Shown: positions 7,142 through 55,771 of the stretch, one piece after another | Numbering within the stretch: the stretch's first letter is position 1 | How the letters are laid out: every line of letters begins with the position of its first letter | Assembly (NCBI RefSeq): GCF_964204865.1 | Contig: NC_135250.1 | Location: 25,783,395-25,847,394 of the forward strand | From: Styela clava | Lineage: Eukaryota > Chordata > Ascidiacea > Stolidobranchia > Styelidae | Direction: 5' to 3' | Length of the DNA stretch: 64,000 bases | Translations under genes and position numbers: made by a program | The notes under the pieces: model-generated | The model's database searches: none | What the model was told of the DNA's origin: nothing | The model's input: the letters and a program-made list of their open reading frames with translations, nothing else

Positions 7142-7147
7142 AATAAA
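7142..7147 (+). terminator. Polyadenylation signal of peptide gene copy A
   Basis: AATAAA about 240 bases after the stop codon, conserved at 21062-21067 in copy B. Confidence 0.6.
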
Positions 7148-8567: not shown

Positions 8568-8723
8568 AGGATTCGTCAACTTGAAAGTATTGTGGAAGAA
8601 CTAGAATAAGAAATAGATATCCTTACTGAACGCCAATACGACCAGGAGCGTAGGTCGAGGCTGGATAATTTATAATTTCACAATATACCCTACTCGCGTG
8701 ATGAAGATTGTGAAAAATTAATT

Positions 8724-9683: not shown

Positions 9684-9795
9684 TCCTAGGTCAACATGGC
9701 AAACAGTTAACGAAATCACTCATGTAAAAAATAAATCTAATCAAAAAGTTGACGAGATCGATATTGAAAATGGCTCTATAACTAGAGATGAACTT

Positions 9796-12247: not shown

Positions 12248-14306
12248 TGTTGTCGAATACATGGCTATATCCTGGTCTGATTTACAAAGTATAAGGAAGT
12301 TTCATGCCTTAGTGTCAATGTGACTTATATTTATTCATTTCACTGTTGTATGTTCATGAAATTTATTATTTGTCGAACTGGACTTGTGGCTCAGTACATC
12401 AGCAACTCGTGACTAGTGACGCGGGATGCGATGACTCGACTTGACCTGGGACTCTAACTATAAAATTTGCTGCCGCGTGGATTTGTCTCGGGTCTCGGAT
12501 AACATGCGACTAGATTTTACTCGCACACGATGTTCTACCAACACTGGGTAATCAATCATTAGGATCGGGAGTTTTTTGACAAGGAAGGATGATATTACTT
12601 CATTTTGCCTTTCGCGTCCATATTTATGAGCGTTGCTCTCGTTTCTTTTTCATTTGTTAGAATGGTGAGTATAGGCCAAACCTGGAGTGACCGGTAACTG
12701 GACACCATCTCCCTTATCGCTTTAAAATGGTTCGTTACTTATCCGATCTGGGTTCGTTAAATGTTTGGGAGCTTCAATCCGTTCTTTTGGCATGGCATAG
12801 GTCTTTTATTGAGTGAGATTTATTTATTGAGTTAAATCATTGTGAAATTATTCGATTACTTGCAAAAATGTGAATCTAATGAATTGGTAACTACTACCCT
12901 GGATTTGTGCTTTACAGTGGATGCTTCCCCGAACTTTGACCCCAAGACAATTCTCCGGATACTTTACTATTGCAAAAAATGTTAGACTTATTTTGAGAGC
13001 GCGTTTGCGAGTTGGCGCTCATAAACTGGCTTACATGTTAAAACTATCATTTTGACGTGCCGCCTACAAGTATTGATAGCTAAGTTTATGCTAGTCTATC
13101 GCAGCATCCGGATAATGCGGGAGAAATTTTTGAATATATATATATTACAACTATACTAAAGCTCCTCGGAAGACATAATGGCAATTTAGTTATTTGATTC
13201 ACAACTATATTTTGAGAACAAAACTGAAATTAGCCGACAGAACCATGAAAACAAGGCAATGCTTAAATATCTGTTTGAACGAAAGAAGTGTCTGAGAGGC
13301 TGCACAAATTGAAATTATCACGTCATTGTATCACGTATTGCTGATTGGTCATTTTCACAGAAATAAACTATGAAAAACATCCACTATTGAGCGTTTGCTC
13401 ATTTTGAAGAGGAATCTGAATCCGGTACGAACACTACTTGAAAAGGGAGATGCAACAGCAGCCAAACCAGGGAGGATGTTTTGGGGTGGGGTTGGAAATA
13501 CAAACATATTACTGTGGATTCGGCGTAGTTTTAATGATACTGTTTTGGTATTTAGTGTTATTGCAATACATAATTGTGGACACATTATAAAATATTCGAA
13601 ATATGCACAAAAGCCAGAGAGCACAGTGCCCGCGTAACACTAGTTATAGATAAGAATCCTTTATAGATTGAACAAACGGTGGAATCATAATTATTGTGTG
13701 TAGTGATGGAGGAATAAAAATCCGAAGTAGGAAAAGGGAGGTATTTATTGAAAAATGTTGGGAACCACCGGACTATAGTTTAGTAAAATTGATGGCGCGG
13801 AATAATTTCCAACATATTTCCTTGAACTCAATTTACAAATATAACACCGCTGTACAGTTCGTGTATACAGGTGGAAGTAGATTTATTCTATAAATATTCA
13901 ATAATGATAAAAAACACCAATATGGGCCTTTCCAGTTTATTGTGAACGATTCAACTTTATTTTAATTCTACCAATGTATGAGCCGTTTACGTCAGTCAAT
14001 ACAATGTAGTGGAACTAGCCTTCCAAAAGTATTCTGCTACTCCCCATTGCATTTCCTTAGTGAGGCTTTACTTCGTGGTCTATTTATACGCGGGAACATT
14101 TAAAATGTACAATATTGTATTGTAGCATCTGGCTGTTTTCACATTCACATGTGGATAATACCCATTGAAAAGTCATTTAGGATAAACTACTATCGATTGA
14201 TTCCAACACAAATTTCTAGATTAGAGCAAATATTACATTTTTGCAATCCTTTAATCTGAGAATACTACCCCATGACTACTATCAATTGATTTTACATCGA
14301 ATTTTT
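12248..14306. other. Non-coding part of segmental duplication copy A
   Basis: It aligns with about 22035-24049 in copy B. I see no conserved reading frame: small frames present in one copy are broken in the other. It probably represents 3' flank between the convergent peptide and receptor genes. Confidence 0.5.
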
Positions 14307-14542
14307 GGTACTCCCGAAGTATGTAAACCAAGATGGCTGACACCGGAACGTAGTATATGCGTATTGCGTACCAGGTTAGGATTAGGCAATAATTTTATTC
14401 TAATTTTAGTTCTATTACAAGTTCGGGGACTAGCCAAGTGACTCCCGTAGTATTTGTACCTGAAATTATGACCTAATCCTAACCTGGTACACATACTACG
14501 TTTCGATGTCCGCCACCTTGGTTCACATACTACGGGAGTACC
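14307..14542. mobile_element. MITE, GGTACTCCC...GGGAGTACC family, copy A
   Basis: The ends GGTACTCCCGAAGTATG and CATACTACGGGAGTACC are inverted repeats. The interior carries the family core (ggcaataattttattctaattttagttc; aacctggtacacatactacg). Five further copies lie at 24050, 31743, 33219, 33925 and 44600. Target duplications at other copies are 8 bp, suggesting a hAT-driven element. Confidence 0.75.
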
Positions 14543-15130
14543 GAGTAATTTGTTCAAGGCAACGTCATTGTCACTCATTCGAATGGAAAGGTAGTTTTAA
14601 ATTGATTTTTTTTAATATTTGCCTAAAGCAAAGTCATGCTCACTCAGAGTAAATGAAACATAGTTGAGAGCAAATTTACATTTTCACAATACTGTAAATT
14701 GACAAAAATATCAAATCAAAGTTCGTCATGAAATAGACTAACATCCAGATTTCAATTTTTTTTTAAACTTTTCCAAAGTAAACTTATGCTCAATCATTTA
14801 TAAACAAAGATAGACGAGGACAACTTTTACGTATGTACATTTTCACAATATCATAATCTGAAAATAATACCAACTGAAAGTCATTTAGATATAGAATACT
14901 TTTATTGATTGAACTCAACTCAAATTTGCTTTAAAATTAACTAGGGAAAAGGATTGCTTACTTATTTTAAAAGAAACATAGGCGAGAGTAAAGTCGCGAG
15001 AATAAAATACCAATGCGAGAGCAATCGAAACGATATATAATTCGGAATACTCCCAGTTGTATTTTATTTTTGTTTTAAATATTAGTATATTGTTTATATA
15101 AAATCGAATCAATCTTAAAATTATTTAATT

Positions 15131-17234
15131 TTACATCCCATTAACGCTTCCATCACGTGGACTAATAACGTAGTCATTTTTTCTAGCCCGTTTTTGTGAC
15201 GTATTGTCTTTGACGTCTTTTGGTCTCTCAGTTCCCATGGCGTCAGTTTCTTCTTCCTCATCAAATTCAATACATTCGTAATCATGCAACTTCTTTGTTA
15301 CGTCATGTTCCACTAAATGTTGATGACGTAATTGATGTAGTGACGTCATCGTTCCTGGGTATTTTGCTCTATTCTTGGTAGAATATGGCCCCACAAACTG
15401 ATCGCACAAATGGTCGTAATCGTCCTCGTTTGAAACCGAAGTCTCTGGTTCGCTTGCTTGATGTGACTCCTCCATACCTATGGTGTTGTAAAAAGGTTGA
15501 TTTGCGCTCGCCAGCGCTGTACGTCATTCATTACTTCTTATGTTTTTTCCACATGAGCCAAGATGGGAACGTAGGCTACTTTCTATCGATGTAGCTGATT
15601 TTGGTCCAATTTGTTCATCTTCATCAGCTGAACGATGGACGCAAGCATTTGTTGTGACCGCGTACAACACATTATCGACCATTTTTACTTCGATATTTTT
15701 TCTCATCCTCACTAAGCGAAGGTTTACTTCGTAATCGCGTCATTCGAATTCCTTCCCGCTCTTTTTCCGCTTGAATGCGTTTGAATGTTTTCTTTTCGCC
15801 GAGGTGACCACGAGGAGCGTTTTGGTCAGATGAGTCAACTCCAGAATCAAAGCACCGTGTAACTCTCCAATATTCATTTTCTGCTGCAGAATCTCCGTTG
15901 AAATTTTCGCAGCACGTGCTTGCATCGCAGTCATGTACGCAATAGGCATCACTTGCTGGGTCGTTCCTGAAAGTAGTGTAAAAATTATCAAGTTAGGTAC
16001 GTAGAGGATTTTCACTATTATATACTGTCATACAATTCGGTGTTGCGGACTAATTTTATCCCAATAGCAAGTTATTTGTTTTAACGGCAAAGTATCGTAT
16101 TTCACAGACCATGGCCATAAGGCGCACCAGGCTATTAGGCGCACCGGGTTATAAGGTGGTATATATATGATCGATTTCAAGATAGAAAAAAGAACTTGAA
16201 GCGCTGCTTATGGTCCGTGAAATGCGGTATACCAAAAATTTCTGATCTTAGACTATCATTTAGCCCGTGTATAGCTAAAGCTGTTTGGAATTATGTACAC
16301 CTGGGTAAACAAAATTAAAGAAAAATTTGTATCTGGAAGAAAGATCGATTGAGTACTTTGTATGTGGCGTTTTGTTGCGTGTTCAAGGATTTATTCGGAT
16401 ATATAAATTTTAATGTTGATGTCTTCACATACCTTGAAGTTAAAACTTTATTTGTTCCTGGACCGCAAACGCGCTTTTGTCTCATCTGCCAGTTTGTTCC
16501 GCTTTCACTTCCTGTTCCGCGAGGGCGACATGTGACCCTTCCACTGACGCTTACAGCGCGTGGTTGAGATTTCGTATTGAAGTTGCTGTGGTCGCTTTCC
16601 ATCGGATTAAGACTTGCGCTCTGGCCCGTTCCACGTTTGAACACGGAGCCATCATTACCCATTGGGTGAGGCGATTGGTTCAAAGGAATGGGGGGTAACG
16701 GCTGGAGGGAACATGAATTTGGGGGCACGCTGGTAGGTGGGGTCGATGACGTCGACAGAAGTGAAGAAGCCGACGGTTCCCTTGATCCCATACTAGTAGC
16801 AACCACTGATCTACTTCCAAGTTCTCGCATTTGTATTCTTGTCCGCGGAGAGTTCTGGTGAATGTGATTTGAAGTATGTCCTACTCCATTAAGATTGGTG
16901 GCCAGAATATGCGGATGCTGCTTGTTTTTCCCTTTTGCACCGTGACCTACAGGACTGGTCATGCTTTTACAGCTACCCCTGCTACTTAACGCGTCACAGG
17001 TAAGTTCAACGCCGTTGAGTGTAGTCTCGCTTCTACCGAACGTTCCTGAACCATGTCTTAGTCCAAGTACATGTGAAAATCCTTGAACTAAACCGCTTGG
17101 TATGGATCCCATTGTACCAGCGGAGAACGATGGCGATGTGACGTCATAGCGAGTCCGTCTGTTTTTTTGCATCATTCGTATTCCGCAAATGCCAATGAGA
17201 ACGATTAGCAGTAGCACAATGAAGACGAGAAGTC
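15131..17234 (-). pseudogene. Orphan 3' end of the TSP1 receptor gene (duplicate), frameshifted
   Basis: Two exons homologous to the last two of the intact receptor: 17234-16433 (802 nt, same length as in copy B, open) and 15966-15131 (836 nt, one base longer). The first encodes half the membrane helix (LLVFIVLLLIVLIGICGI) and the proximal tail. In the last exon a run of six A replaces GGAAAA of copy B, adding one base. The frame then ends at 15672-15674. Independently, GAATGA replaces GAAGGA, a nonsense change ending at 15524 in the shifted frame. No signal-peptide or extracellular exons exist upstream: past 17498 the duplication ends and copy B begins. It is therefore a pseudogene fragment unless transcribed from another promoter. 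Confidence 0.85.
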
Positions 17235-17498
17235 CTGGAATAAATTCTTTGATATATTATTACTCAATTCGCGAATTTTAGAAATATACATACACATCGA
17301 TATACATAGTCAGTTAATTCCTCGATATAATTCAATTACAGTTAATTTACCCACAAAATTCAACTTTCCTATATTTTAATAACCTTATTAGCAATAGAAA
17401 ACTAGTACAACATGCTCCGCCCTCATTTGTTTGTGATAGACCCTGGTACCGCATCTTGTAATTTCTACCAAAGGAAGGTGAAGTAGTATCCCCAAAAT

Positions 17499-17705: not shown

Positions 17706-18259
17706 ACACCTTCACGGGCCCCAAAATGCTAAAAGTTTGAGAAGCCTCAATATAAAATTTTCAACGACTACATTGTTGGTATAGTAACTTGATATTAATT
17801 CAAATTTGAAATTGTTCGTTAGGGCATCGAATTCCGCGCGAAAATATGCATCGAATTCCGCGCCAAAATATACATCGAGTTTCAAACGCGAAAGATTCCT
17901 TCCTGTAGGATATATATACAGAGTCAGGAAAGTAACATAATAGATAATTATTTATTAGTTTTTACAACAGCGAATAACACTACTAAAATATTCCACAAAA
18001 TAAGTGATATATTAGTGTAACTCATAATTCATTTTCATTAATGAGAGCATTTATGAAATGCTTTGCGCGATGCATTTCATACGAATGATTGGCCCATGTT
18101 GAAAATGAACATCAATTACCAAGTTATGCATGTTAAATTACTGATTATTTTTAAAAGGGTCTCATAATCGACGCGTTTGGCGTTCAAACATTGGAAAAAC
18201 ATTCGAAACGAAATCTTTCCTTTTCCGATTGTAAACTACCAAAATATTATTTGAAAGCG

Positions 18260-18798
18260 ATGTTTCAACTTTATTATGCCATTGTCTTGGAAATCTTCCT
18301 CGCTACAACAGAAACTGTTGCTGCCGACCTCCAATACCTCTTGTCGTCAAAATTCGCCAACGATGTCAATAATAAGGTAAGTCTAGTTATTGTAAATGCT
18401 TACAAATCGGCACAGTAAAAGCAAAATAGCTTTTTAGAGAAGAACTTCTTTGATCTTTCGTTATTAATGTTGGATCAGGGGACACCTTTAGCTTTGTGTT
18501 TCAATGCTGTGTCTGTTTAAGTTTTGATTTTAGGGGATGCCTTGTGTCTACTTTTAGGTTTGGTCTTTAGATCTGAAAATTACAAAATACATCTTCTCAA
18601 AACTTCAAAATTTTACATGATCTAATTTTGCTCAACCTCCGAAATAACATTCCTAAATTATCGCCCAACAAAAATAATTTTAACTGAGAGCCCATTACTC
18701 CATCAACGAAATTATTTTCACAACAGGAACTCGAAGATGAAGACGCTTCTATTTATTTTCTTTCTGTTCCTGGCAACTTTCCGATCTGCTACTGCTAG
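18260..18798 (+). CDS. Candidate overlapping small secreted peptide or upstream ORF, copy B (62 codons)
   Basis: Exon 18260-18376 (39 codons, signal-peptide-like MFQLYYAIVLEIFLATT) ends at AAG|GTAAGT in phase 0. The acceptor at 18725-18726 (cacaacag) leads into exon 18727, where the same frame stays open for 23 codons (ELEDEDASIYF ... ICYC) and stops at 18796-18798. This second part overlaps, in another frame, the signal peptide of the main protein starting at 18737. It may be an upstream ORF repressing the main one, a second product of the same mRNA, or chance. Copy A carries a deletion that closes it early. Confidence 0.4.
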
Positions 18799-20822
18799 AT
18801 GCTCGTGAGTACATAAATAGGATTCAAACTGTATATTTATTCCGGGGGAGATCCAATATGACGCCTTGCTCATTATGACGAACCACGGCATTTCGTCCGG
18901 TTACCAGTCCATGCCGGTTATGGGATTAGTTAGCCAGTTATTTTGTTTTAGATGCATAGACTTGCTGGTGGATGAACGGTGACCGTACATTTGAACCCAT
19001 GTACATTTGAACCTATGCGTATATCAACGGGTTCAATCTATATGCGGGTGCTAAAACCCATGGGTTAGGGTTAGTATGGGTTTAACTATCCGTGAAACAA
19101 AAAAAAATCCATAGGTGCAATAGCATACAGGTGCAATTGTCATGGGTTCAAATGTACGTGGGTTCAAATGTAATGGAACCGGATAAACCACCTTACGGTG
19201 GGGTGAGAAGTGCAGCAGTCTACTTGCACATGATTATTCTTCGCGGGATTCGAACCTGCGAACCCACGAATGATAATGGTTGGAACAACGTATTACTAAC
19301 CCCTGGCACGATGCGCCACACCGATCTGATTAAAATACGTTAAATAAACTTTTATCAGTGCTCTTTTACATTTTTGGTTAAGATTTCTAGCTGTGAGTGA
19401 ATTTATATATTAACTGTAAATCTTAACAAAACTGAATATTAAAAAAAATTATACAGTAACTGGATGGTTTTTAAAATTTTATAGGGTTTTACAGTTGCAG
19501 CTTTTTTATATTGTTTTGACAAACTTTTGAAATTGTAACGTTTCTTCTAATTCTTTTTTTAGGAGTTATGACTGCAAGGAAAAGTCCGTTGAAATAATTG
19601 GTAAGACAATAATTAGACACACGATTATATATATTTCGCGGCTGTTACGTTCAGTGGTTTCAAGCCTGGCGGAATACGACAATATAAAGACTTATCGATA
19701 TAAATAGAACTTTCATGGCACTCTACATGACACTATTTCTTTTCATTAGATAATATTATTTTCCTATCCAAACTGGACTTACATATGATATCGTTAAGAT
19801 GCCTTGTCGAACAGGGCTTCAAATGATCTTGTGGCTAATTATTTTTCAATTTGTGGCTTGTTTAAAATGACTATCATAACATTACCTACTGGTTATGAGT
19901 GAGACTAACCTTCATATTCTCAATATGATATGATGATATGATGTTTTCAAAATGGGACACCAAAATTATACCGTACCGTCCAGCAAACAGGTCGCAGTTA
20001 TTACCATTTCATGGCAGCTCCCGCCACGAACGAACCGCGCGTCTCTTTCCATGGTTTCATGGCGCTATTATCGGTATATTCACAAAGTCATGTACCAGAT
20101 TTTAGTTTATCATGCGGAATTATATCTACTTAACCTGAAACTTAACCCCAAATCTATCAAAACTGTATCCACAAGGAAAATGTTCCAATTTACCCAACAT
20201 TTGTCATCATCAGGCAGCCCTGGCATTACAGCCAACATGCCTTGGTTTGTGGCAGCAAAATTCTACCATTCTGCCATTGGTTTTCAATTTGCTGCTGTGA
20301 TCCCCGTCTCGCGCCATTGGTTTGTGGCAGCTAAGAAGTCAGCCCGCATGGTTTGACCAAAGCGGCCGTGGTTTGGAAATCCCGCCACGGTTTTGCGGCA
20401 GCTTCAGACGTCACAAAATACTTAAAACTGCGCTTTTACAAACCGAATACTCAACAGAACTTCACGCTTCATTTATTTATCAAAGGCGATGCCAGTTTTA
20501 ATAAAAACAATGCAAGCGGTTTTGACTCATGTTATAAAAAAACATCATTTCTAGTATTTTAAATTAGTATTTTCTAGTATTTTAAAATAGTATTCCAATA
20601 ATTTCAGAGCCTCGTGAAGAAGATGCAAACGTTATCGAAGTCCCGAAATTTGAAGAAAACGTTCAATCTATCCCACAATTTCCTCTGGATGATGACGCTT
20701 TTATACAACATCCCAGGCAAAAATTCATATTGAAACCAAAACTTAAGAATAATCTTGACGACCGCGTTATACTGGCAATTCCTGAATTTGGAATAGAAGA
20801 TTTTGATTATAACTTTAATTAA
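18737..20822 (+). CDS. Small secreted protein, copy B (106 aa, 3 exons)
   Basis: Exons 18737-18804, 19563-19600 and 20608-20822 (68+38+215 = 321 nt), same phases as copy A. Signal peptide MKTLLFIFFLFLATFRSATA, then RCSSYDCKEKS: one codon shorter than copy A in exon 2, an in-frame difference. The last exon is nearly identical (SIPQFPLDDD, KPKLKNNLDD, a single E to G change near FGIEDFDYNFN). All splice sites are kept. Retention of frame through indels in both copies argues for selection. The family is not recognised; the protein should be secreted, with one possible disulfide. Confidence 0.77.
18836..19330 (-). mobile_element. tRNA-derived SINE, copy B, interrupted by a 207-bp insertion
   Basis: Same SINE as 5118-5400, inherited through the duplication, with the B box complement gggattcgaacc near 19248. 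It is split by the private insertion 18974-19180. Confidence 0.7.
18974..19180. mobile_element. 207-bp private insertion with GTTCAAATGTA repeats, GGAT target duplication
   Basis: Absent from copy A, where ggtggataaacc is continuous. It is flanked by GGAT at 18970-18973 and 19181-19184. Repeats such as acatttgaacccatg at the left and catgggttcaaatgta at the right form inverted ends. It postdates the segmental duplication. Confidence 0.72.
19968..20440. repeat. Dispersed CCATGG-rich repeat, copy 2
   Basis: Duplicate of 6096-6535 inside intron 2 of peptide gene copy B, with small indels. Confidence 0.6.
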
Positions 20823-21061
20823 ATTTTGAAAATATTTATTGATAGTTATTGCAGGAAAAATCATTTTGGAATCTCGCGAAATAGTTGATGAACGGAATGT
20901 GTAGACTTTCTGGTTTTAATGATTTACATGTTTAGTTTATTGGGGTAAATTTTCATCTGATTTATGTTGATTTTATTGAACTAAACTTTACTATTATTTC
21001 GTTTTGTATTTTTGTGTTCTATGTAGTGACTTTTCCATGTTCTGAGTTTCTTTTTTTATGA

Positions 21062-21067
21062 AATAAA
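21062..21067 (+). terminator. Polyadenylation signal of peptide gene copy B
   Basis: AATAAA, in the same position relative to the stop as in copy A. Confidence 0.6.
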
Positions 21068-24049
21068 TTCCAATATTTGCTACTAATGTGCAGTATGTCT
21101 TGCAGTCGTATTTTACGCTCAAGTAGTCTCATTCAGGCTGTCCGAATTGTTACATTTCGCGGTATTTATGTAATTGTTACTCATCTTTGCGAAAATCTAA
21201 ATGCTATGATCATATTAGTTGATCAGCCTTGTCATTGCAAATTGGTATTTGAGTTAAAAAGGTGAAAAGCGCCAGAACCAACGGTCTGTGTGTTCTTCCT
21301 TAATTTCCTTTCGAATAGAAGATTTGTTCTCGTCAAAGCATCGAAACACCATTGTAAATTCGTCGCAGCAAGAATAGTCTGACGTGTCCTCTAAAGAGCA
21401 GAATAAGAAAATTTTTGTGTGATAATCTGCAAGAAATTTATGATATAAAAAGTATTCCGCGGACAAGCAAAGGTAGAAAATCACTGTATTAGACAAATGC
21501 TCAATCATATATTAGGTACGAAAGATATTTCTAAATTATTTAAATGATCCAACTGCTGCATGTCTTGGAATTGAGGCAGAAAACTTCCAAATTATAAAAA
21601 TTCCACCGTTATTAATTTTTGTGACCTCCCGCTCCAAACGAGACTCTATAAGAGCAACCACACTTGTTTAGAAGTTACGTACTGTGTCTTATTAATATAT
21701 AATCTTTGTCTATCTATCGCCTGCGCTAGTGATTTATAATACCATGATCATCAGATGGGAAATCAAAGAAATCGAGATTTTTAACCCAAAATACCGAAAA
21801 TATCAGAAATAAGGCAATAACCACCAGTTTTGCCTTCGGTTGATCTCAAATCACGTGATTCGTCAAACTCGGACTCGACTAACCACCATAGATACTCGGG
21901 GGAAATTTTGCGAAATCTTTGAAATAAGGAAAAAAACAGTGAAGTACGAATCATCACGCAAGTAAATATGTTATTAGAAAAATAGGAAATTTAGTAGCCT
22001 GTTGCAAAATCTACTCTATATAAGTTTTATTGATGTCGGTGATGTCGAATATATATGGCTATATCCTGGTTTTATTTTCAAAATGTTGGGAAGTATCACG
22101 CCTCAGTGTCAATGTGACTTATATTTATTCATTTCACTGTTGTATGTTTATGAAATTTATTATTTGTCGAACTGGACTTGTGGCTCAGTACATCAGCAAC
22201 TCGTGACTAGTGACGCGGGATGCGATGACTCGACTTGACCTGGGACTCTAACTATAAAATTTGCTGCCGCGTGGATTTGTCTCGGGTCTCGGATAACATG
22301 CGACTAGATTTTACTCGGACACGATGTTCCACCAACACTGGGTAATCAATCATTAGGATCGGGAGTGGGACTAGGTCGGGAGTTTTTTGACAAGGAAGGA
22401 TGATATTACTTCATTTTGTCTTTCGTGTCCATATTTATGAGCGTTGCTCTCGTTTCTTTTTCATTTGTTAGAATGGTGAGTATAGGCAAAACCTGGAGTG
22501 ACCGGTAACTGGACACCATCTCCCTTATCGCTTTAAAATGGTTCGTTACTTTCCGATCTGGGTTCGATAAATGTTTGGGAACTTCAATCCGTTCTTTTGG
22601 CATGGCATAGGTCTTTTATTGAGTGAGATTTATTTATTGAGTTAAATCATTGTGAAATTATTCGATTACTTGCAAAAATGTGGATCTAATGAATTGGTAA
22701 CTACTACCCTGGATTTGTGTTTTACAGTGGATGCTTCCCCGAACTTTGACCCCAAGACAATTCTCCGGATACTTTACTATTGCAAAAAGTGTTAGACTTA
22801 TTTTGAGAGCGCGTTTTCGAGTTGGCGCTCATAAACTGGCTTACATGTTAAAACTATCATTTTGACGTGCCGCCTACAAGTATTGATAGCTAAGTTTATG
22901 CTAGTCTATCGCAGCATCCGGAGAATGCGGGAGAAATTTTCGAATATATATATATTACAACTAAACTAAAGCTCCTCGGAAGACATATTGGCAATTTAGT
23001 TATTTGATTCACAACTATATTTTGAGAACATAACTGAAATTAGCCGACAGAACCATGAAAACAAGGAAATGTTTACATCAATGCTTGAATATTTGTTTGA
23101 ACGAAAGAAGTGTCTGAGAGGCTGCACAAATTGAAATTATCACGTCATTGTATCACGTATTGCTGATTGGTCATTTTCACAGAAATAAACTATGAAAAAC
23201 ATGCACTATTGAGCGTTTGCTCACTTCAAAGAGAAATCCGAATCCGGTGCGAACACTACTTAAAAAGTGGGAGGATGTTTTGGGGTAGGGTTGGAAATAC
23301 AAACATTTCACTGTGGATTCGGCGTAGTTTTAATGATACTGTTTTGGTATTTAGTGTTTTTGCAATAAATAATTGTGGACACATTATAAAATATTCGAAA
23401 TATGCACAAAAGCCAGAGAGCACAGTGCCCGCGCAACACTAGTCATAGATAAGAATCCTTTATAGATTGAACAAACGATGGAATCATAGTTATTGTGTGT
23501 AGTGATGGAGGAATAAAAATCCGAAGTAGGAAAAGGGAGGTATTTATTGAAAAAGGTTGAGAACCACCGGACTACAGGTTAGTAAAATTGATGACGCAGA
23601 ATAATTTCCAACATATTTCCTTGAACTCAATTTACAAATATAACACCGCTGTACAGTTCGTGTATACAGGTGGAAGTAGATTTATTCTATAAATATTCAA
23701 TGATGATAAATTCAATGATAAAAACAACAATATGAGCCTTTCCAGTTTATTGTGAACGATTCAACTTTATTTTATTTCTACAATATTGCATTGTAGCACC
23801 TGGCTGTTTTCACATTTTCGCAATATTGTAAATAATGTGGATAATACCCACCGGGAAGTCATTTAGAATCGACTATTATTGATTTACTCGTAATTGAAAT
23901 TTTTTATTTTTCAAAAGTTACGCTAAGCTCAGTCATGCTCACTAATTCTAATGGAAACCTAGATTAGAGCAAATATTACATTTTTGCAATCCTTTAATAT
24001 GAGAATACTACCCCATGACTACTATCAATTGATTTTACATCGAATTTTT
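21068..24049. other. Non-coding part of duplication copy B
   Basis: Aligned with copy A except 21487-21940, which is unique to B. No gene is supported. The clean site around 22030 (attgatgtcggtgatgtcgaat) is the empty target of the copy A LINE. Confidence 0.55.
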
Positions 24050-24242
24050 GGTACTAACGAAGTATGTAAACCAAGATGGCTGACATCGGAACGTAGATAT
24101 GCGTACCAGGTTAGGGTTATGCAATAATTTTATTCTAATTTTGGTTCTATTACAAGTTCGGGGAGTAGCCAAGTGACTACCGTAGTATTTGTACCTGAAA
24201 TTATGACCTAACCCTAACCTGGTACACATACTACGGGAGTAT
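24050..24242. mobile_element. MITE, GGTACTCCC family, copy B (internally deleted)
   Basis: Duplicate of 14307-14542 but missing about 35 bases near its right end. In copy A the lost stretch lies between two copies of acatactacg, so the deletion probably arose by recombination or slippage between them. Confidence 0.7.
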
Positions 24243-24832
24243 CGAGTAATTTGTTCAAGGCAACGTCATTGTCACTCATTCGAATGGAAAGATAGCTTTA
24301 AATCGATTTTTTTTTAATATTTGCCTAAAGCAAAGTCATGCTCACTCAGAGTAAATGAAACATAGTTGAGAGCAAATTTACATTTTCACAATACTGTAAA
24401 TTGACAATAATATCAAATCAAAATTCGTCATGAAATAGACTAACATCTAGATTTCAATTTTTTTCTCAAACTTTTCCAAAGTAAACTTTTGCTCAATCAT
24501 TTCTAAACAAAGATAGACGAGGACCAATTTTACCTTTGTACATTTTCACAATATCATAATCTGAAAAATTACCAACTGGAAGTTATTTAGATATAGAATA
24601 CTTTTATTGATTGAACTCAACTCAAGTTTGCTTTAAAATTAACTAGGGCAAAGGATTGCTTACTTATTTTGAAAGAAACATAGCCGAGAGTAAAGTCGCG
24701 AGAAAGAAATACCAATGCGAGAGCAATCGAAACGATTTATAATTTGTAATACTCCCAGTTGTATTTCATTTTTGTTTTAAATATTAGTATATTATATATA
24801 TAAAATTGAATCAATCTTAAAACTATTTAATT

Positions 24833-27800
24833 TTACATCTCATTAACGCTTCCATCACGTGGACCAATAACGTAGTCATTTTTTCTAGCCCGTTTTTGTG
24901 ACGTCTTGTCTTTGACGTCATTTGGTCTCTCAGTTCCCATGACGTCAGTTTCTTCTTCTTCATCAAATTCAATACATTCGTAATCATGCAACTTCTTTGT
25001 TACGTCATGTTCCACTAGATGTTGATGACGTAATTGATGTAGTGACGTCATCGTTCCTGGATATTTTGCTCTATTCTTGGTAGAATATGGCCCCCCAAAC
25101 TGATCGCACAAATGGTCGTAATCGTCCTCGTTTGAAACCGAAGTCTCTGGTTCGCTTGCTCGATGTGACTCCTCCATACCTATAGTGTTGTAAAAAGGTT
25201 GATTTGCGCTCGCCAGCGACGTACGTCCTTCATTACTTCTTATGTTTTCTCCACATGAGCCAAGATGGGAACGTAGGCTACTTTCTATCGATGTAGCTGA
25301 TTTTGGTCCGCTTTGTTCATCTTCATCAGCCGAACGATGGACGCAAGCATTTGTTGTGACCGCGTACAACACATTATCGACCATTTTTACTTCGATATTT
25401 TCCTCATCCTCACTAAGTGAAGGTTTACTTCGTAATCGCGTCATTCGAATTCCTTCCCGCTCTTTTTCCGCTTGAATGCGTTTGAATGTTTTCTTTTCGC
25501 CGAGATGACCACGAGGAGCGTTTTGGTCAGATGAGTCAACTCCAGAATCAAAGCACCGTGTAACGCTCCAATATTCATTTTCTGCTGCTGAATCTCCGTT
25601 GAAATTTTCGCAGCACGAGTTTGCATCGCAGTCATGTACGCAATAGGCCTCACTAGCTGGGTCGTTCCTGAAAATAGATTAAAAATTATCAAGTTAGGTA
25701 CGTAGAGGATTTCCACTATTATATACTGTCATACAATTCGGTGTTGCGGACTAATTTCACCCCAATAGCAAGTTAGTCTAACATAAGGTTGCCATACCGT
25801 CCGGAAAATTCCGGACATGTCCGGAATTTAGAGTTAAATTTTGCGTCCGGGAAGAATTTAAAAAATGCTCAAATGTCCGGAACCCGGAATTTTACTGCAT
25901 CTGCAATCGTACTGTGCACACTGCTAATACAGAACATTGTTATTTTGTAACGTGCGAATATGTTTTACTACGAGGTCATGTAAATAGTCATGCACTGTCC
26001 GGAATTTTGCTTTTTCAAATATGCGCACCAGGTTATAAGTGGAAAGTGATTTGGAGTGTAGGCAATAAAACACAACCTGTTTCATACATTAGGCGCACCG
26101 GCTTATAGATGCATGATCGATTTTAAGATAGAAAAAAGAACTTGAAGCGCTACCTATGGTCCGTGAAATGCGGTATACCAAACATTTCTGATCTTAAACT
26201 ATCATTTAGCCCGTGTATAGCTAAAGATGTTTGAAATTATGTACGCATGAGTGTATTTTCACGTAAAGTCTTGGTATAAACAAAATTAAAGGAAAATTTG
26301 TAGCTGGAAGAAAAATCGATTAAGTACTTTGTATGTGGCGTATTGTTGCGTGTTAAAGGATTTATTCGGATATATGTATTTTACTGTTGATGTCTTCACA
26401 TACCTTGAAGTTGAAACTTTATTTGTTCCTGGACCGCAACCGCGCTTTTGTCTCATCTGCCAGTTTGTTCCGCTTTCACTTCCTGTTCCGCGAGGGCGAC
26501 ATGTGACCCTTCCACTGACGCTTTCAGCTCGTGGTTGAGATTTTGTATTGAAGTTGCTGTGGTCGCTTTCCATCGGATTAAGACTTGCGCTCCGGCCCGT
26601 TCCACGTTTGAACACGGAGCCATCATTACCCATTGGGTGAGGCGATTGGTTCAAAGGAATGGGGGGTAACGGCTGGAGGGAACATGAATTTGGGGGCACG
26701 CTAGTAGGTGGGGTCGAAGACGTCGACAGAAGTGAAGAAGCCGACGGTTCCCTTGATCCCATACTGGTAGCAACCACTGATCTACTTCCAAGTTCTCGCA
26801 TTTGTATTCTTGTCCGCGGAGAGTTCTGGTGAGTGTGATTTGAAGTATGTCCTACTCCATTAAGATTGGTGGCCATAATATGCGGATGCTGCTTGTTTTT
26901 CCCTTTTGCACTGTGACCTACAGGACTGGTCATGCTTTTACAGCTACCCCTGCTACTTAACGCATCACCGGTAAGTTTAACGCCGTTGAGTGTAGTCTCG
27001 CTTCTACCAAACGTTCCTGAACCATGTCTTAGTCCAAGTACATGTGAAAATCCTTGAACTAAACCGCTTGGTATGGATCCCATTGTACCAGCGGAGAACG
27101 ATGGCGATGTGACGTCATAGCGAGTCCGTCTGTTTTTTTGCATCATTCGTATTCCGCAAATGCCAATGAGAACGATTAGCAGTAGCACAATGAAGACGAG
27201 AAGTCCTGGAATATATTCGTTGATATATTATTACTCAATTCGCGAATTTTAGAAATATACATACACATCGATAAACATGGCCAATTAATTCCTCGATATA
27301 ATTCAATCACAGTTAATTTACCCACAAAATTCAACTTTCCTATATTTTAATAACCTTATTAGCAATAGAAAAACTAGTACAACATGCTCCGCCCTCATTT
27401 GTTTGCGATAGACCTTGGTACCACATATTGTAATTTCTACCATAGAAAAGTGAAGTGGTATCCCCAAAATTTCGTGTCTCACCCAATGTGTACCACACGT
27501 GTATTCATTGTATGGATCTCACTTCATAAGAATACTCTTTACTTTCTTCAATAGCAGTGGTTCTCAAAGGGTGGGGCGCGCCCCACAGGGGGGGGGGGGC
27601 TAGACAATTTTTTGAGCGGGCGTGAAGCTAATCAAAAGTGAAATTTTTGTTAGATTTAATGTTGCCTGTCATAATCTGGATATTTACATTTCAAAACTTT
27701 TCATTTAATTTTTTATTTACGAGTTCCACGCATTTTCAAAGTGGTCATTTTTTTTTTTTGAATAAAACATACTTTCGCCTTACTATCTGTTATTTGTAGC

Positions 27801-30800
27801 TTATTGTTAGCTAGTTATTTTTAAGGTGGGCGCGAGACTTGACAAATTCTAAAACGAGGGCACTGCTTAAAATATTTGAGAACCGCTGTTCTAAGATCTA
27901 CGTTCTATGTGAAGTGGATGGGGCATGGCATTATGGAGACATCGTTAGATTACACATATTCTATTTAGGATTTTTACCTGCGATAAGAGCTGGAGCATAA
28001 TCCTTCAATACTGAAGTGAACCCATCATCAGCGATTCTTGTGTGATTTCTATTTCTTCGTGTTTTTGGATCGGAGTGTCTTGTCAACGTTACCTCCAATC
28101 CTGAAGAGACCGTGTCAAAAGCTTCCGTCGTAGTTGTTTCCATAGGCGATATTTTTTCGGTAGAAAATTGCTGAAATTTAATTTAAAAGATATAAAAGTA
28201 AGTTGACGCTTGTAACGCAAGTTTCAGTTCAACGCATTCAGTTATTACAGAAGATTATATAATACATCAGTTGACGATCTATGTATATGTATATCTATTT
28301 GTATATTTGTCGGGGGAGAGAAAGTCGACAATATGGCCTAATCATATAACAGGACCCAGGTCTCTGGTCTGGTTACCAGTTCAATCCGGGTATGGGATTA
28401 GCGATCCCTTATATGTTTTGAATGCAAGTACCTAATGGAGGAAGAAGGCATGGATGACCAGCAAACCACCCTACGGCGGTGAAGAGTCCAGCAATCCTCT
28501 TTCACATAATTATCCTCAACAGAATTCGTACCTGTGAACTCAGTCAAGGTAATCAGAGATTCGGTGAAGAGAGTATTCTTAACGCTTAGCACGATACTCC
28601 AACCGCTAGCAGTGGAGTGGGATTGTGGGAAGTCTTGTGTTTTTACTGTTTTGAAGTCTGAACTGGAATCGTACATGTATTTGGATTTTGAAATAGAATT
28701 TCAACCGAAGCAGAAAGATTTTTTCGGAATTCCGCAGTTTTAGGCTGTAGTCGGAGTCGCAACTTTTCGCAACCTGGAGCTCGATTTTTGAGTGTTTTAA
28801 AAATGTCATATCCCACACTTGTCTCCCTGTCCTCAGTTAGGGTATAAACATTTAGCTGTATTGTGTTGTAAAAGACTTGAGTATGCATGTGAAGTGGGAT
28901 TTCTGTTATGTTTTGAGTTAGGGTAGATAAGAAACTTGTGGCAAATTTTACAGTAAAAATTAGGAGTCGAATTCACTGTATGTTCCTAGTTAGGATGGGT
29001 ATATTACATTGGCAGGTTAGAGTTATCATATGAAGCGGAATTCAAGCTATGTTTTTAGATAGGATGGTGTAGTTCATTTTTCAGATGGTCAGAGTAATTG
29101 TATGGAGTGGTATTCATGCTATGTTCTGAATTAGGACATTTTCTTTCTAATTCTTTCCAGAACAAGTAGTGCAAGGCTTCTTTGAGACACTTAGAGACGA
29201 GTGAAAATGTGTCCACGGCGCATTACAGATTTATTTTGTTGTACTCGCAAACGCCAACATCATGTTTAGCAAAAGGTTCTTTGCTCTGCTGATTGAAACG
29301 CGATGTAATTCTTAATGTATTAAGAGCAATTAAGGAAACAATTCATGGAGCGGGACACTAAAATACTCCGTATGACGCACGATTTGTCTTGGTAACCTCA
29401 ATGAAATTGCGACGTGAACAAAACTTGTTAAAAACGACGCCTATTTGCTAGCAGACTTGAGTCATTGGAACCCGACTGTTGTGAGCTATCAATGGGTGTA
29501 AACATTTTCGAATGTCTGATGATTTCAGAATCAAATCACATAAGGTTTCTTCGAATCCAATCTCGAATACTTGGAAGAGATGTGATTGTATGCGACTTTT
29601 TTTTATTATAATGGGTCTTTCCAGCACATGAATTACTATAAACACATGAAGTACACATTACCCGTCACAAAATTGAGTTTTATTTAAAAGAATTTTTTTT
29701 TGTTGATATTTTTTACTGATAAATTGGTACCGTACGAACAAATGATTTTGGAACTGCTGGTATAATGACAAATACAATTGAGTAGATAATATTAATAAGG
29801 CCCTTGGACACTTGAACACAAGTGTCTACAAAGAAACAATTGATGATAACTTTATGGCAATTTCTTACCGAATATACAATCATAAATTATTTCACATCAA
29901 ACACAAGATTTAGAAAATCTGCTTGTGTTGGTTCATTAGCATAATTGAATTGAATAATTACAATTTTACCAACTTATGAAAGTTCAGTTGCACTAGTCAA
30001 AAATTAGTCTCGAAATAGCTGCGAAAGATTAGCCTAAAATTAGTAATCTGTATATTTTAATGACAGTTACTTGAATATCCCGAATCACAATTATGGTTTT
30101 AAGCATGCAAATCAGTATAAGCACTATTCGGTGAAAAGGCTAACAAAATAAACATCAAAAAATTTCCCATGATGAAGTGTAGGGTCAAGAAGGGTATAAG
30201 GAAAATGGCTATTGCATCTATTATAAAGAGAAGCAAAGATGAGAAGAGCAAATCAATGGCTTGTATCCCAACTCTTATATTGAGCATTTAAACTTTTAGT
30301 TGGTGGTCTGGACATCGTCTTGAGCAAACATGCGAAAGCCTATAAATTTGATTTTAAATAATTATTATCTATATTACCAATAAGCAACAACTGACTTAAA
30401 CTCACCTCCCCATGGCTTGAATTGCTTATTGAATCATTATCTTGAATTTTGTCATCCGAATTGTCCTCCACACACTCAATGTTAAATTGCGTACTTGTTT
30501 CCGGCGGTAACGTAGACTGACCTTGATCTGCGGTTCGATATGTGACGTCACATTTCCTGTACTCCGTAGAATTGCCTTCGCATTTTGGTGGATTTGATTG
30601 TAAATTCGACTCACATCGTCGCGTGCGATATTCACTATTCCCTTCTTGGAGAGCCTTCAAAGTTTGTGGCGCAATTTTTAACGATTTCTTAATACCAATG
30701 GAATCGTTCAAAGGGGAAAAAGTAGAGAAAAATGCTTGTAATAATGTTGAATTAAAGATTGGTGCTTCAGTGGTGCTAGCTGGCAAGTTGATTTCTCTTC

Positions 30801-33800
30801 TTTGTCTTAGTAATCTACATTTTGTCCCGTTATTGTATGAAGTAGATGTTCTGATTGTTTCACCATTTGAGCAACCCTTCCACGGTCCCCATCGCGACCA
30901 TTCTGGACATTGTACATCACGGTTACATGGTTCAGATTTGGTATTTGTCCCGCCAAAATATGCTTTGCAATACGACACAGAAATTCGGTTCCACGTTACG
31001 CGTTCGCCGTAGAGTCCTGAAACATATTAAAGGCTAAATTGAGAAAATATTTTGTATCAAAATAAACTGTGGTTCAACCGAGCGACGAATTTAAACTTGG
31101 AAAAGTATTCCGCAACGACACATCGTTTCGTTTTATCCACACTACTATAAATACAAATATTCATTTGATTAATTTAGTGGATCTCAATCTTTTTGAGCCG
31201 CGCACCTTTTTCAGAATTTGCTCGCACCCCACCTCAAAAATAACTAGCTAACAAAAGGCTACAAATAACAGATAGTAACGCAAAATTTTATTCGAAAAAC
31301 ACGTTGAAACTACGTGGATGGAATTGTAATCTCTGAACAATAAAGAAATATGAATATTCAAACTAAGGTGAGCAAGTTCGAATCTAAGAACTATTTTTAT
31401 TTTAGCTTCACGTCCCCTCAAAAATAGTCCAATAGTGTGGGGCGCGCCCACCGTTTGAGAACAACTGCTATGAATACAAATATTCGTTCAATTACAATCG
31501 CTGAAACGACTTTCAGTTTGCTACGATAGAATTGGTTGCGTGATATGCAAATACAGCCAAATATATACATTTAAATCCAACGCAAATACATATATAGCCA
31601 ATACCTTGCATGTCGTTTAAAACGAAACATTTGGGTTAAACCATTTGGAACGAATTCTAGGGGAACATAACTATGGTGCGAAACATTGCTAAAACTTTTG
31701 TGTACAATCAAACACATACAAAACTTTTTAAACAAACATTTTGGCGCTTCAGAAGTATGTGTACCAATATGGAGGTAACTTATTTTGTTCGCCTATTTTA
31801 CATTAAGTTGTGTAAAGGGACTGAAACCTATGGGCTGGGGGTATATTCACTTGGCTAACACAGACAGTCCCGGACTTGTAATAGAACTAAAATAAGGAAA
31901 ATCGGAATAAAATTATGGCCTAACCTTAACCTGGTACACATGCTACGAGAGTACCAAAATTTTCGTAGTAATAATTGAGAAATTTATGGGTTCTATTTTT
32001 GGGGTCATGCTGTTATAAAAAAATAGCATTAAAATAGAAGTAGGCAAATAAATGAATACCTGTCCTATCTTTTATGTGGCACGACCGTGTGTATGTAATG
32101 AAACCTGACGACCCACACGTTGACGTACATTGCGTTATAGCAGTCCAGTTTCCCCAACGAAAGCAGTCTGAGCACGGAGAAAGTTCTGCACGACAGAAAG
32201 GCCAAAAACGTCCTCTAAGTTTGTGAAATCTGGCATCGCTAGTCCGTTTTCCAAATCGATACGACTCGGATACCATTCCATCGTAACAAACTCGAAATTG
32301 AGCACGTTGACGCATTACGTCTATTCTTATGTATCTTTGACCCAGTGCGTAAGCGTCACGCACGCACGCGTCTTTGCACGTTTGCTCGCCTATTTCAGCG
32401 CGAGGAACGTCATCACATTGCTGACTAGGAAGATAGTATCTGAAATTGAAGTCAGAGGTATTTTGATTGCCACTTGAGTAAAAAAAATTAACACAAAGTC
32501 TCTGTATTAATATTGAAACGACAGAAGTTGTGAAGGACGTATTGCTCCGTCATCGGATTTACAACCAACCCCCTTTGATAAACCAAAAAAAAAACGTTTT
32601 GGGGGTTTTCAACGTGGCCCGGGTTGTTAAACAAAATGTAACGGTTCAATCAAAATTATAATCGTACATTTCGTTATATCATAGTCAGGGGCGATATTCA
32701 ATGAACATAAAGGGTCGGATTTCTAGACGGCTTAGGGCCCGGTCAGACAAAATACACTGATTTCACAGACGGAAAAATTTTAGATGCCTAACAGCCGGTG
32801 GTGGGATTCAGGGGGTCACACGGGTTCGTCGTGATAATCAGCGAATCCGATCTTGTTTTATGAACGATAAGTTCCGAATTCTTTTTTTCTGAAATGAGAA
32901 AACTGCGTTTAGTGAGTTTGTGTTCTTAAAACTTTGACTCCCGTCACATATTACAACTATCTTTTGCATAAATATTGATATCTGTTCTAAACCAATGGAA
33001 GCTTTGTAATACGTCTTTAAAATGAGGCCTGTTTTTGTAAAATAGGCGGCTAATAATTTCAAACACGCTTTTGCATAGTGCTGAAATAACTATTTTATTG
33101 CGTCTATGCCACCAACTCATATGACTTCCTTACAGCGCTTGTTGAGTTAGTGGTATCTTTTGATTTATTTTTTAATGGGTGATTTTAGCCATGCGTTACA
33201 AATTTATATTAAAAAGTCGGTGCCCCAGAAGTTTGTTTACCAATATGAATGTAACTAATTTTGTTCGCCTACATTACATCAAGTTGTGTAAAGGCACGAA
33301 AGCCTATGGGCAGGAGGTATATTCGTTTGGCTAACACAAACAGTCCCCGAACTCATAATAGAACTGAAATAAGAAAAATCGGAACAAAATTATGGCCTAA
33401 CCCTAACCTGGTACACATACTACGGGAGTACCAAAAAAGTCATTCGAATGTAATCCATTCTCCATACAACACTCTTGCTGCACACCTCGTTATTTCGTAT
33501 TTTCTTCGTTCACAATATATTAAAATCCTTGCAGTAGCAGCTCACAATAATAGAGACAGATACATGAATCCCTACATAGACACTACATGTCATAAATCAC
33601 AGCACCACAAAACATGAAAGTACATCCGGTTAGCAGTGCTAACACGGATTATCCGAGAAATGGTTGAACAAGATGAACGATATATTATACATTATACGAT
33701 TATAATTGCGCGACAACTATTTTTTTTTAATTAAACAAGTTGCTCAAAGAAAGATAACGCACACTCACTGGCAATCTGAGCGAAGTGACGAGCGATTACT

Positions 33801-36790
33801 GAAATACCTGCTGAGAATATTAGAAATTACTATCAAATTCACTAAGTGTTTTATATTCTTCTGGCGTATTCTGCCAGATTATCACGTTAAAGTTATCAAA
33901 CGCACTCTGGCATAGACTTTCAGGGGCGCTCCAGAAATATGTGTTTCAATATGGAGGTAACTAATTTAACTCGCCTACATCGAGTTGTTTGAAAGCACGG
34001 AAGCCTATAGGCGGGGGATATATTCACATGGCTAACACAAACAGTCCCCGAACGCGTAATAGAACTAAAATAAGGAAAATCGGAATAAAATTATGGCCTA
34101 ACCTTGACACGGTACACATACTACGAGAGTACCATGTCAGGAGTGAACTTCCTTAATAACTAAGGATTGATTTTAAACTTCTTAGGCTTTTCATTGAAAT
34201 ACTTTGGTGAATATCCAAACTTTTGATTAAAAAACCAGTTCAAAAGCATTATTTTTTTTTATTTTTTTTTTCACAAAATTCTAATAATCACCCCCTTTGT
34301 CTTGGAGCCCTCGAATTATCAAATTAATCTCTTAATAATCTCCGATTATCTCGGATATTCTTACCTGAGGTTTCTTTTCTGGCATTGGTTCCCAGATGCG
34401 ATCGCCCATTGCCTGACTCCAGATCTGACAGAAACAGTAGCGCAAAATATGTCTTCTTTCAAAACACCAATAAGACATTCTGATCTGACCTGAAATGCAA
34501 ATTTGTAAAAAATAGTTTTCAAACATTGATTATAATATTAGCCCACAAATGGCATAAATATCAGTTTGCTATACATTTGAAAGAGTGGACGTGACCTTGC
34601 TTTAAGCGACTTCTCGTTAATTGGCGATTAGGCGCGTTTTGTTATTCTAGCTTAGGCCTATTTGATAACTGTGGACAGCTTAGAAATCTTTTACTTTTTA
34701 TTATTATTTGTCTGAGGTTACTGTATATTCTTAGCTTACTTTGCTATTATGTTCCTATGTGTATGCGCTACTGATATGCTCGAAGTTGCATGTCAATTCA
34801 TTGACGCTACTCAAAAGTCAGTGGATACAAGTTTACTCGATATTCAAAGCATTTCAAGCCAATACTGTTTCAGAAACGCCTACAAAGCCGTTATCAACAA
34901 TTCTTTTCTGTATATTCCGTTGAAAAAACGAGGCTTCAACGGGGAAGAACGCAGAATAAATGATAAAGAATCGCCTACTTACCGAGAAGGAAGACTCCCT
35001 AGAGATGAATTTTTGCATTTTTTGAGTGGGGGGAGGGGCGGAATTCTGTTTTATTAGATGTATATATTACTAAATATTTAGTTTTATTAATATTATATGT
35101 ACCTATTTTTGTACATATTGGGAATTAAATAAACTGTACAAAAACGGGAATCCGCCAGCTAAGGATATATTAAAGATTGAAGAAATAACGAAGTTTCGTG
35201 CATTGGGTGGACGAGCTCCAAAATAGGCAAAGGGTAGAATTTAACAAAAAGGTTAGGAACCATTGGTCGGGTGCATTAGCCTAAATTATTTGTGCAGTGA
35301 TTAAATTGAATTAAAAGTATTAAATTTACCAACCCTTGTTAGTGGATTCCAGACTTGAACTTTTTTATAATCTCGTTCGCTTGCATATCTATGATGTTCA
35401 GTCGCTCCCGCTTTGCATTCTACGGAGCAATTGCGATTTAATATTGTCACTTCACCGATAGTCGAACGGTCTGGGTGAAAAATCGAATCTACAATTAACA
35501 ATTCAACTTAAAGTAGCATGCAGTCTAGCTGGGCATCTTCAATCGACTCGAATTGTTCGGATCGGTTAAAAAAAAATATCGAATCGCCGCCGCGGGGCAA
35601 ATCCTTCTATTTTTGCGAAGCCATGTTTTTAGATTGCAATAATGGCATATGATTTTTTTCTTTTCTAAATTATATCCTATTATGTGAACAGACTGAGTGA
35701 TGTATTCTATGTAATTCCGGTAATTTATGTGTCTGGAGGGCAGTTACAAAAACAACGCCACATACAATTACGTTCTTGATAAATTCTATTTCTTACAGTA
35801 AAAAATAATCGATTTGATTCTGAAATCAGGTATTCAAAATTGTTCATGTTAGCAAGCTTATTCTTGCTTACTGGAACATTATGACGACCGTGACAGCAAT
35901 GATATATACAGCTACATATATATAGAGCTAATGAAATACAGAAGAGGTTGACTAGAACCATTTACAATTAGGTGTGCAATCAAGTGTATTGTTTATGAAT
36001 ATATATATAAGGAGACAATCGGCAGAGACTACTGATCGTTTTCCATCGTCCACAGGCCGGTCTTTGGTCACTGCAACCTTCCACACTTACGTAGTTCATG
36101 CGATAGGTTCGGGGGTAAATTATTAGGCAAGTGTGCATTCTGTACACACAGGAATCGTAAGTAAACTTAAATAAATTGCGATTTTGTACTCAATTAGAAT
36201 GTAATAAAATGCGAAGAAGGATTCATTTCATATTACGAAATGTTATTTTTTAGATATTATCCTTATTTTTACCGAGTTGGAGCTCGATAAATACGTCTCT
36301 TCCTTAGAGCTCCGCATTAGATAGGGTATCCATGTCCACGTATCTCGTGTGATCAATTAGTTCGTTTTCAATGCCTGACTTAGACTAGAAATACAACTAA
36401 AGGTAGTGATTTGACAAATGTTCAAATAGTTTTATCGACTCTACTCGTCGTATAAATATGTAAATTGTATTTTTGAAAATTTCTAAAACAATGAGATTTA
36501 GCTAAAAATATGAATCCAGATTTTTTTACCGAAAAAAAAAGTTTAAACAAAAATTTTAATTTATTTTCTGGATATTCTTGGACATTGAAGCTATTGTTTA
36601 CAGTTCATAAAAGTATATAAATATGATGTTACTCACCAATTCCAGAACATTCATTCAAACATTCGTGATCTACTGGTTTTGAGTACCAAACTGGCCGGTT
36701 TACGTTATCAATATTGATAAATCCAGTATCTGCAGATATCCAAGATATGCAAAAATAATGCAGTGTAAGTAATCTAATTACGAATGCCAT
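24833..36790 (-). CDS. Single-pass membrane receptor with TSP1-like modules and a 526-residue cytoplasmic tail, 8 exons
   Basis: Exons (minus order): 36790-36637, 35488-35330, 34479-34365, 32439-32060, 31016-30406, 28170-27978, 27205-26404, 25667-24833. All phases join; 3249 nt, 1082 residues. Residues 1-20 are a signal peptide (MAFVIRLLTLHYFCISWISA). The ectodomain is Cys-rich. A divergent TSP1-like stretch (about 95-165) contains SVRSGVRQW and QQCDDVP. A clear TSP1 repeat at 232-306 has W238, W241, C247, C251 (WGNWTAITQCTSTCGSSGF). Another starts at 307 (CPEWSRWGPWKGC). A Ser/Thr-rich stalk (400-530) precedes the helix 533-556 (LLVFIVLLLIVLIGICGI), which is split between two exons. The tail has a proline-rich patch (LQPLPPIPLNQSP), many Ser and an acidic C-terminal part (EFDEEEETD), but no domain I recognise. 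It resembles THSD7/THSD1-type proteins only in layout. Introns carry many MITEs. Confidence 0.84.
25777..26005. mobile_element. hAT-like fragment with TCCGGAAAATTCCGGA motif
   Basis: Present only in copy B, within the last receptor intron. It begins aaggttgccataccgtccgg and repeats tgtccggaa near its other end (tgcactgtccggaatttt). Terminal phrases of the type GGTTGCCA...CCGTCC are common in hAT elements. The boundaries are approximate. Confidence 0.5.
27555..27888. mobile_element. hAT-like MITE, CAGTGGTTCTCAAA termini
   Basis: CAGTGGTTCTCAAAG at the left and TTTGAGAACCGCTG at the right are inverted repeats. A run of G (ggggggggg) and ggggcgcgcccca lie near the left end. The same family is seen reversed at 31173-31469 and truncated at 45577-45720. 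It lies in a receptor intron. Confidence 0.75.
28306..28612 (-). mobile_element. tRNA-derived SINE, diverged copy
   Basis: It carries the SINE tail (gtcgggggagagaaag), body words (ggttaccagt, caaaccaccctacgg) and a decayed tRNA-like head (agaattcgtacctgtgaac). It lies in the receptor intron between 28170 and 30406. Confidence 0.6.
28845..29140. repeat. Minisatellite-like tandem repeat, about 70-bp period, 4 units
   Basis: Units share a phrase of the type gaattca-tatgtt--tagttaggatgg, at about 28910, 28980, 29049 and 29120. Units are diverged (roughly 70 percent by eye). Confidence 0.6.
31173..31469. mobile_element. hAT-like MITE, reverse orientation of the 27555 family
   Basis: The ends tagtggatctcaa and ttgagaacaactgcta, with ggggcgcgcccac near the right end, mirror 27555-27888. 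It lies in a receptor intron. Confidence 0.65.
31743..31955. mobile_element. MITE, GGTACTCCC family
   Basis: Family core with ggcgcttcagaagtatgtgtacc at the left and ctggtacacatgctacgagagtacc at the right. It lies in a receptor intron. Confidence 0.7.
33219..33432. mobile_element. MITE, GGTACTCCC family, with 8-bp target duplication
   Basis: AAAAAGTC at 33211-33218 is repeated at 33434-33441, just outside the right end ...GGGAGTACC(A). The interior matches 31743-31955 closely. The 8-bp duplication points to hAT mobilisation. Confidence 0.78.
33925..34133. mobile_element. MITE, GGTACTCCC family
   Basis: ggcgctccagaaatatgtg to cacatactacgagagtacc. The flanks ctttcagg and atgtcagg match at 6 of 8 positions. 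It lies in a receptor intron. Confidence 0.7.
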
Positions 36791-55762: not shown

Positions 55763-55771
55763 CCAAAAAGG

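Follow-up and report, generated by a model that had tools for sequence, protein, structure and literature searches.

The window, the whole 64,000-nucleotide stretch of Styela clava DNA analysed here, carries on its minus strand, from 36790 to 24833, a predicted gene of eight exons whose joined frame runs uninterrupted for 1084 codons to a TAA stop. Its exons, with the evidence for each in brackets, are:

36637..36790, minus strand: exon 1, aa 1-51; start codon, signal-peptide-like N terminus and first Cys pair (GT donor, open frame)
35334..35488, minus strand: exon 2, aa 52-103; Cys-rich N-terminal region (splice sites and frame; without Pfam match)
34365..34489, minus strand: exon 3, aa 104-144; Cys-rich N-terminal region (splice sites and frame; without Pfam match)
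32060..32439, minus strand: exon 4, aa 145-271; Cys-rich region followed by the first half of TSR-A; motifs WGNW and CTSTC (splice sites, frame, motifs; TSP_1 below cut-off)
30406..31016, minus strand: exon 5, aa 272-475; second half of TSR-A, then TSR-B, with WSRWGPWKGC (splice sites, frame, TSP_1 score)
27978..28170, minus strand: exon 6, aa 476-539; Ser/Thr-rich stalk and start of the membrane helix (splice sites, frame)
26404..27205, minus strand: exon 7, aa 540-806; membrane helix and beginning of the tail, with PLPPIP (splice sites, frame; 2.0% different from the copy at 16433-17234)
24833..25667, minus strand: exon 8, aa 807-1084; remainder of the tail, including its tyrosine motifs, an acidic patch and the stop codon (splice sites, frame; 3.2% different from the copy at 15131-15966)

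All seven introns are GT-AG: a GT follows each of exons 1-7, an AG precedes each of exons 2-8, and the phases agree. The sequence-only reading of this locus had claimed an uninterrupted eight-exon protein, which the open frame and splice sites bear out; its length of 1082 residues, against 1084 here, reflects the choice of exon borders. An AATAAA lies at 24608, beyond exon 8. The openness of the long exons exceeds chance, because the window holds eight stop-free runs of at least 200 codons, where simulated windows average 0.03 (first-order Markov, 60 simulations). Three of these runs hold exons 5, 7 and 8, one holds a second copy of exon 7, two are retroelement frames, and the other two belong to a carnosine N-methyltransferase (CARME) gene and a zinc-finger gene.

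Scored singly against stop-free random frames, the codon usage of exons 1, 2, 3 and 6 is in no case significant (P 0.15, 0.32, 0.31 and 0.09, respectively). Exon 6 is required by the model, because with its 193 bases it brings exons 5 and 7 into phase. The prediction of exons 1-3 rests on splice sites, frame and cysteines. If the chain is wrong at this end, exons 1-3 (or 1-4) would be spurious or would belong to another gene, and the true ectodomain would begin elsewhere. Their codon usage, no better than that of random open frames, is compatible with this, as is a second open frame in exon 3 that scores slightly above the model frame; Pfam gives nothing above cut-off for the N-terminal 230 residues, the best match being Diedel (E 0.038). 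However, phases agree across GT donors and AG acceptors, a TAG stands in frame directly upstream of the exon 1 ATG, and the hydrophobic N terminus is followed by cysteines throughout (14 within aa 44-237), and a mistaken 5' chain is considered decidedly unlikely. The AG of this TAG could itself act as an acceptor, in which case a further exon upstream of exon 1 would be possible.

The N terminus is signal-like, as judged by hydropathy. A single further peak, reaching 3.4 over 19 residues from aa 537, marks the helix and is followed by KNRR. A signal-like start and one helix with basic residues on the inside predict type I membrane topology, in agreement with the signal peptide and single helix proposed earlier. 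It is very probable that this is a real animal gene and that its product has this topology. Around the helix, Pfam returns Orthoreo_P10 (E 0.068) and DUF4006 (E 0.17), both below cut-off.

The tail that follows comprises 524-527 residues, where 526 had been claimed, and is without Pfam match at E up to 10. Its composition is likewise as first described: a proline patch (PLPPIP, aa 718-723), 13.6% Ser, and a net negative charge from aa 824 onward. Ten tyrosines are present, four of them in YxxPhi contexts (839, 966, 990 and 1036), and the tyrosine motifs include YNTI, YDHL and YECI. Short tyrosine and proline motifs of this kind arise by chance.

Outside the membrane, two stretches resemble thrombospondin type 1 repeats; we label these TSR-A (aa 238-308, with WGNW and CTSTC) and TSR-B (aa 308-430, with WSRWGPWKGC). 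Over the whole protein, TSP_1 scores 25.3 bits against a Pfam cut-off of 21.6 (E 1.7e-5), and on this score the protein is a predicted member of the TSR superfamily. The best stretch, aa 401-428, aligns to profile positions 19-45 of 49, that is, to the second half only. Pieces of TSR-B searched alone score 23.6 and 23.1 bits, with two stretches reported at a lax threshold. In our reading, TSR-B may be a single repeat that an insert of about 55 residues (aa 345-399) divides into a first part, at WSRWGPWKGC, and a second part beyond it. In TSR-A, Pfam recognises the first half only, and below cut-off (E 0.048 for TSR-A by itself, 0.81 within a longer piece). Compared with the compact six-cysteine repeat of 50-70 residues, the WxxW and CxxTC elements are seen, whereas TSR-B is seemingly split and TSR-A is sub-threshold. 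The earlier description of TSP1-like modules is partly right, and the support is slender: the whole-protein score passes, but the best match covers half the profile and the second repeat falls below cut-off.

No family other than TSP_1 passes the Pfam cut-off in the full protein; a PADR1 zinc ribbon match in TSR-B (E 0.0078) lies below it. A four-module alignment of the Cys-rich stretches provides too little for claiming further TSRs. Exons 4 and 5, folded singly without an alignment, gave unusable models (mean pLDDT 51.9 and 33.9). Between TSR-B and the helix lies the Ser/Thr-rich stalk.

The locus also contains a tandem segmental duplication of about 10 kb, whose long blocks are 89.8-93.7% identical and which includes a second copy of exons 7-8 (15131-17234), about 10 kb downstream, that is missing from the first description of the locus. 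Its parts are:

17706..27470: duplicated segment, copy A; contains exons 7-8 of the model (self-comparison)
4042..17498: duplicated segment, copy B; includes extra DNA at about 7982-12240 with endonuclease/reverse-transcriptase frames (self-comparison, Pfam)
16433..17234, minus strand: copy B exon 7; open frame, acceptor and donor kept (comparison with copy A)
15131..15966, minus strand: copy B exon 8; compared with copy A, has a single +1 frameshift and a single in-frame stop

The duplication breaks between exons 6 and 7, such that copy B has the helix and tail exons and lacks exons 1-6. The two copies differ at 16 of 802 sites in exon 7 and at 27 of 835 in exon 8. Together these 43 differences in 1637 exon sites (2.6%) compare with 53 in 802 (6.6%) across four flanking non-coding stretches of intron and 3' sequence (Fisher p 6e-6). 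Across 545 codons in the frame of copy A, the changes are 18 synonymous, 24 non-synonymous and 1 stop; with the stop omitted, dN/dS over exons 7-8 is approximately 0.41 (one-sided binomial p 0.004; mutation-matched simulation P 0.024). Because the exons diverge less than their flanks and dN/dS is 0.41, the tail is read as coding and its frame as under purifying selection.

Alternatively, the two copies could be haplotypes of one locus, set side by side in the assembly, and the duplicate an artefact. The block layout (4042-17498 and 17706-27470) is that of an uncollapsed overlap of two contigs, and exons 1-6 were found once in the genome. Against this, the window contains no N, one copy carries two disabling changes, non-coding sequence diverges by 5.8-7.7% close to the exons and by about 10% in the two most distant long blocks, and the extra DNA with retroelement frames is found in one copy only. 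Each of these four points is of inconclusive weight, and we regard the haplotype explanation as unlikely.

If copy B is instead in use, some transcripts would skip to it and encode a receptor with a shorter tail. Its two acceptors and donor are kept, its exon 7 is open and 98% identical, and copy B can be joined to either exon 6 or exon 7 with the frame kept as far as aa 904. Its last exon, however, has the frameshift and in-frame stop, it lies beyond the terminal exon of copy A and an AATAAA, and a dN/dS near 0.4 is roughly what is expected of one constrained copy and one mostly free copy. Such use is very unlikely. Less likely still is the compound proposal of an orphan family with a new scaffold tail, in which splicing to copy B would yield a 904-residue form, without YNTI, YDHL and YECI, as a decoy for the full-length receptor; this would be a long shot. 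The frameshift, the in-frame stop and the absence of exons 1-6 make copy B a probable partial tandem pseudogene, a 3' fragment in decay. A decaying copy of the tail next door is a warning to annotators, who could split the locus into two genes or give it a false alternative 3' end.

Of 12 candidates scored for the model protein in the 376.6 Mb assembly (379 contigs, with the window in contig 1), 11 are matches at E up to 1, and every one lies in the window: the eight exons and three pieces of copy B. Exon 7 DNA finds two places from two candidates, exon 7 itself and copy B, at 98% identity. With these two queries, no further copy was found in the genome beyond the window. COX1, whose mitochondrial code would bear on the tunicate assignment, gave 0 matches from 2 candidates in the assembly. 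The genome is rich in TSP_1: the 150 candidates scored, of 1061, gave 150 matches, and those listed are all above cut-off. The gene is not among these 150, and its repeats are thus weak for its own genome. Dense TSP_1 clusters occur at G000:C2:17864487-17971980 and G000:C5:20172445-20227851, which suggests large TSR genes or gene arrays there.

Relatives outside the genome were sought in Pfam, NCBIfam (for the ectodomain), PDB sequences, and viral and prokaryote contigs. Residues 1-438 matched 0 NCBIfam families. Exon 7 against viral contigs and aa 1-571 against prokaryote contigs gave 5 and 6 pattern-matched stretches, respectively, with 0 confirmed in either case. Against PDB sequences, aa 1-571 gave three chance matches to DNA-binding proteins (E 0.47-0.51), and the TSR-A/B piece gave MIC2 (E 0.2 and 0.3) and properdin (E 0.74-1.5). 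Animal proteins of this type are scarce or absent in these collections, so their silence means little. Among publications on tunicate or ascidian TSP1 membrane proteins or the THSD layout, judged by title, no such long-tailed receptor was found.

Several known TSR membrane proteins provide points of comparison. The tail of THSD1 is about 420 residues long, and those of THSD7A and THSD7B are short. UNC5 netrin receptors combine TSRs outside with a long intracellular part, as does the model, and carry Ig, ZU5 and death domains. THSD7A and THSD7B resemble the model in being type I with divergent TSRs, and the model linkers SPCSDCFRWGNW and EPCNRDVQCPEWSRW are presumably reminiscent of theirs. UNC5 identity was rejected, as the Ig, ZU5 and death domains are absent by Pfam (E up to 5 for the full protein, up to 10 for pieces). 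The TSRs of UNC5 are described as C-mannosylated in the cited excerpt (PMC6954052).

A closer relation has been considered for THSD1 and THSD7. THSD1 (Tmtsp), according to the cited excerpt, works with talin, paxillin and FAK at focal adhesions, and the model shares with it a single span, a TSR outside, a helix and an intracellular part without a named enzyme (PMC12189160). THSD1 has one TSR according to the excerpt of PMC11990869, where the model has one and a weak second. The same excerpt gives 19 TSRs for THSD7A and 18 for THSD7B (PMC11990869); at most two are recognised in the model, which lacks the long THSD7 array. Of the two families said earlier to share the general layout, THSD1 is the nearer (single span, TSR, helix), and by TSR number the model is not a THSD7.

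Instead of being a lineage-specific receptor, the protein could be orthologous, though divergent, to THSD7A/B or THSD1 of vertebrates, given its divergent TSRs before a single helix (as in THSD7) or its few TSRs with a long tail (as in THSD1). The disparity in TSR number with THSD7A and THSD7B speaks against it, as does the finding that TSP_1 was the only family model to pass its cut-off, and such orthology is judged improbable, at about the level of the haplotype explanation. For a lineage-specific receptor there is precedent in C. elegans MIG-21, described in the cited excerpt as a nematode-specific TSR-containing transmembrane protein with a role in cell migration (PMC12445740); this nematode gene is likened to the model by description only. 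TSR domains are described as having undergone repeated duplication and shuffling across the superfamily, and the part of the source cited also reports novel TSR architectures from anthozoans (PMC5446238). With lineage-restricted TSR membrane proteins such as MIG-21 already known, the gene looks like an orphan of a familiar sort. If it is a further orphan with a selected long tail, it would be a useful entry point into the signalling of its lineage.

The favoured reading, which we consider probable, is a type I receptor gene with a divergent TSR ectodomain, one helix, a selected tail that would act as an adaptor scaffold, and a decaying duplicate of exons 7-8. The adaptor-scaffold mechanism itself is offered tentatively, by analogy. 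WGNW and WSRWGPWKGC fit the published consensus for C-mannosylation, and CTSTC fits that for POFUT2, as given in the excerpts of PMC12990085 and PMC11990869. The mechanism would involve: maturation of the ectodomain through C-mannosylation of its WxxW sites, with possible O-fucosylation of CTSTC; binding of a matrix or cell-surface ligand; recruitment to the tail of SH3, SH2 or PTB adaptors through PLPPIP and YNTI, YDHL and YECI; and coupling of the receptor by these adaptors to the cytoskeleton, as for THSD1 at focal adhesions. A scaffold role is proposed because the tail has no recognised enzyme domain. The adhesion or signalling receptor suggested by the sequence-only reading is consistent with the type I layout, the TSP_1 score and the Pfam-silent tail; its adaptor signalling would follow from the motifs and the analogy.

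Other features of the window include a dispersed repeat around CCTAACCCTAACCTGGTACACATACTACGGGAG with a telomere-like CCTAACCCTAACC core, present in four places with up to 3 mismatches:

24207-24239, 31919-31951, 33396-33428 and 44761-44793: dispersed repeat CCTAACCCTAACCTGGTACACATACTACGGGAG

Searches for this repeat found 0 occurrences in prokaryote contigs and 0 in viral contigs. At 668-2871, minus-strand frames match C-type lectin (E 0.0028) and collagen (E 0.00031), both below cut-off, and are possibly parts of one collectin-like gene. On the plus strand, 38783-42277 encodes in a row the carnosine N-methyltransferase (CARME), the C2H2 zinc-finger protein and EMC6. Two arrays of tandem units of about 360 bases, in opposite orientation at 52604-55764, jointly form a large inverted repeat, and at 58107-61051 a 1.47 kb unit is duplicated head-to-tail at 99.5% identity.
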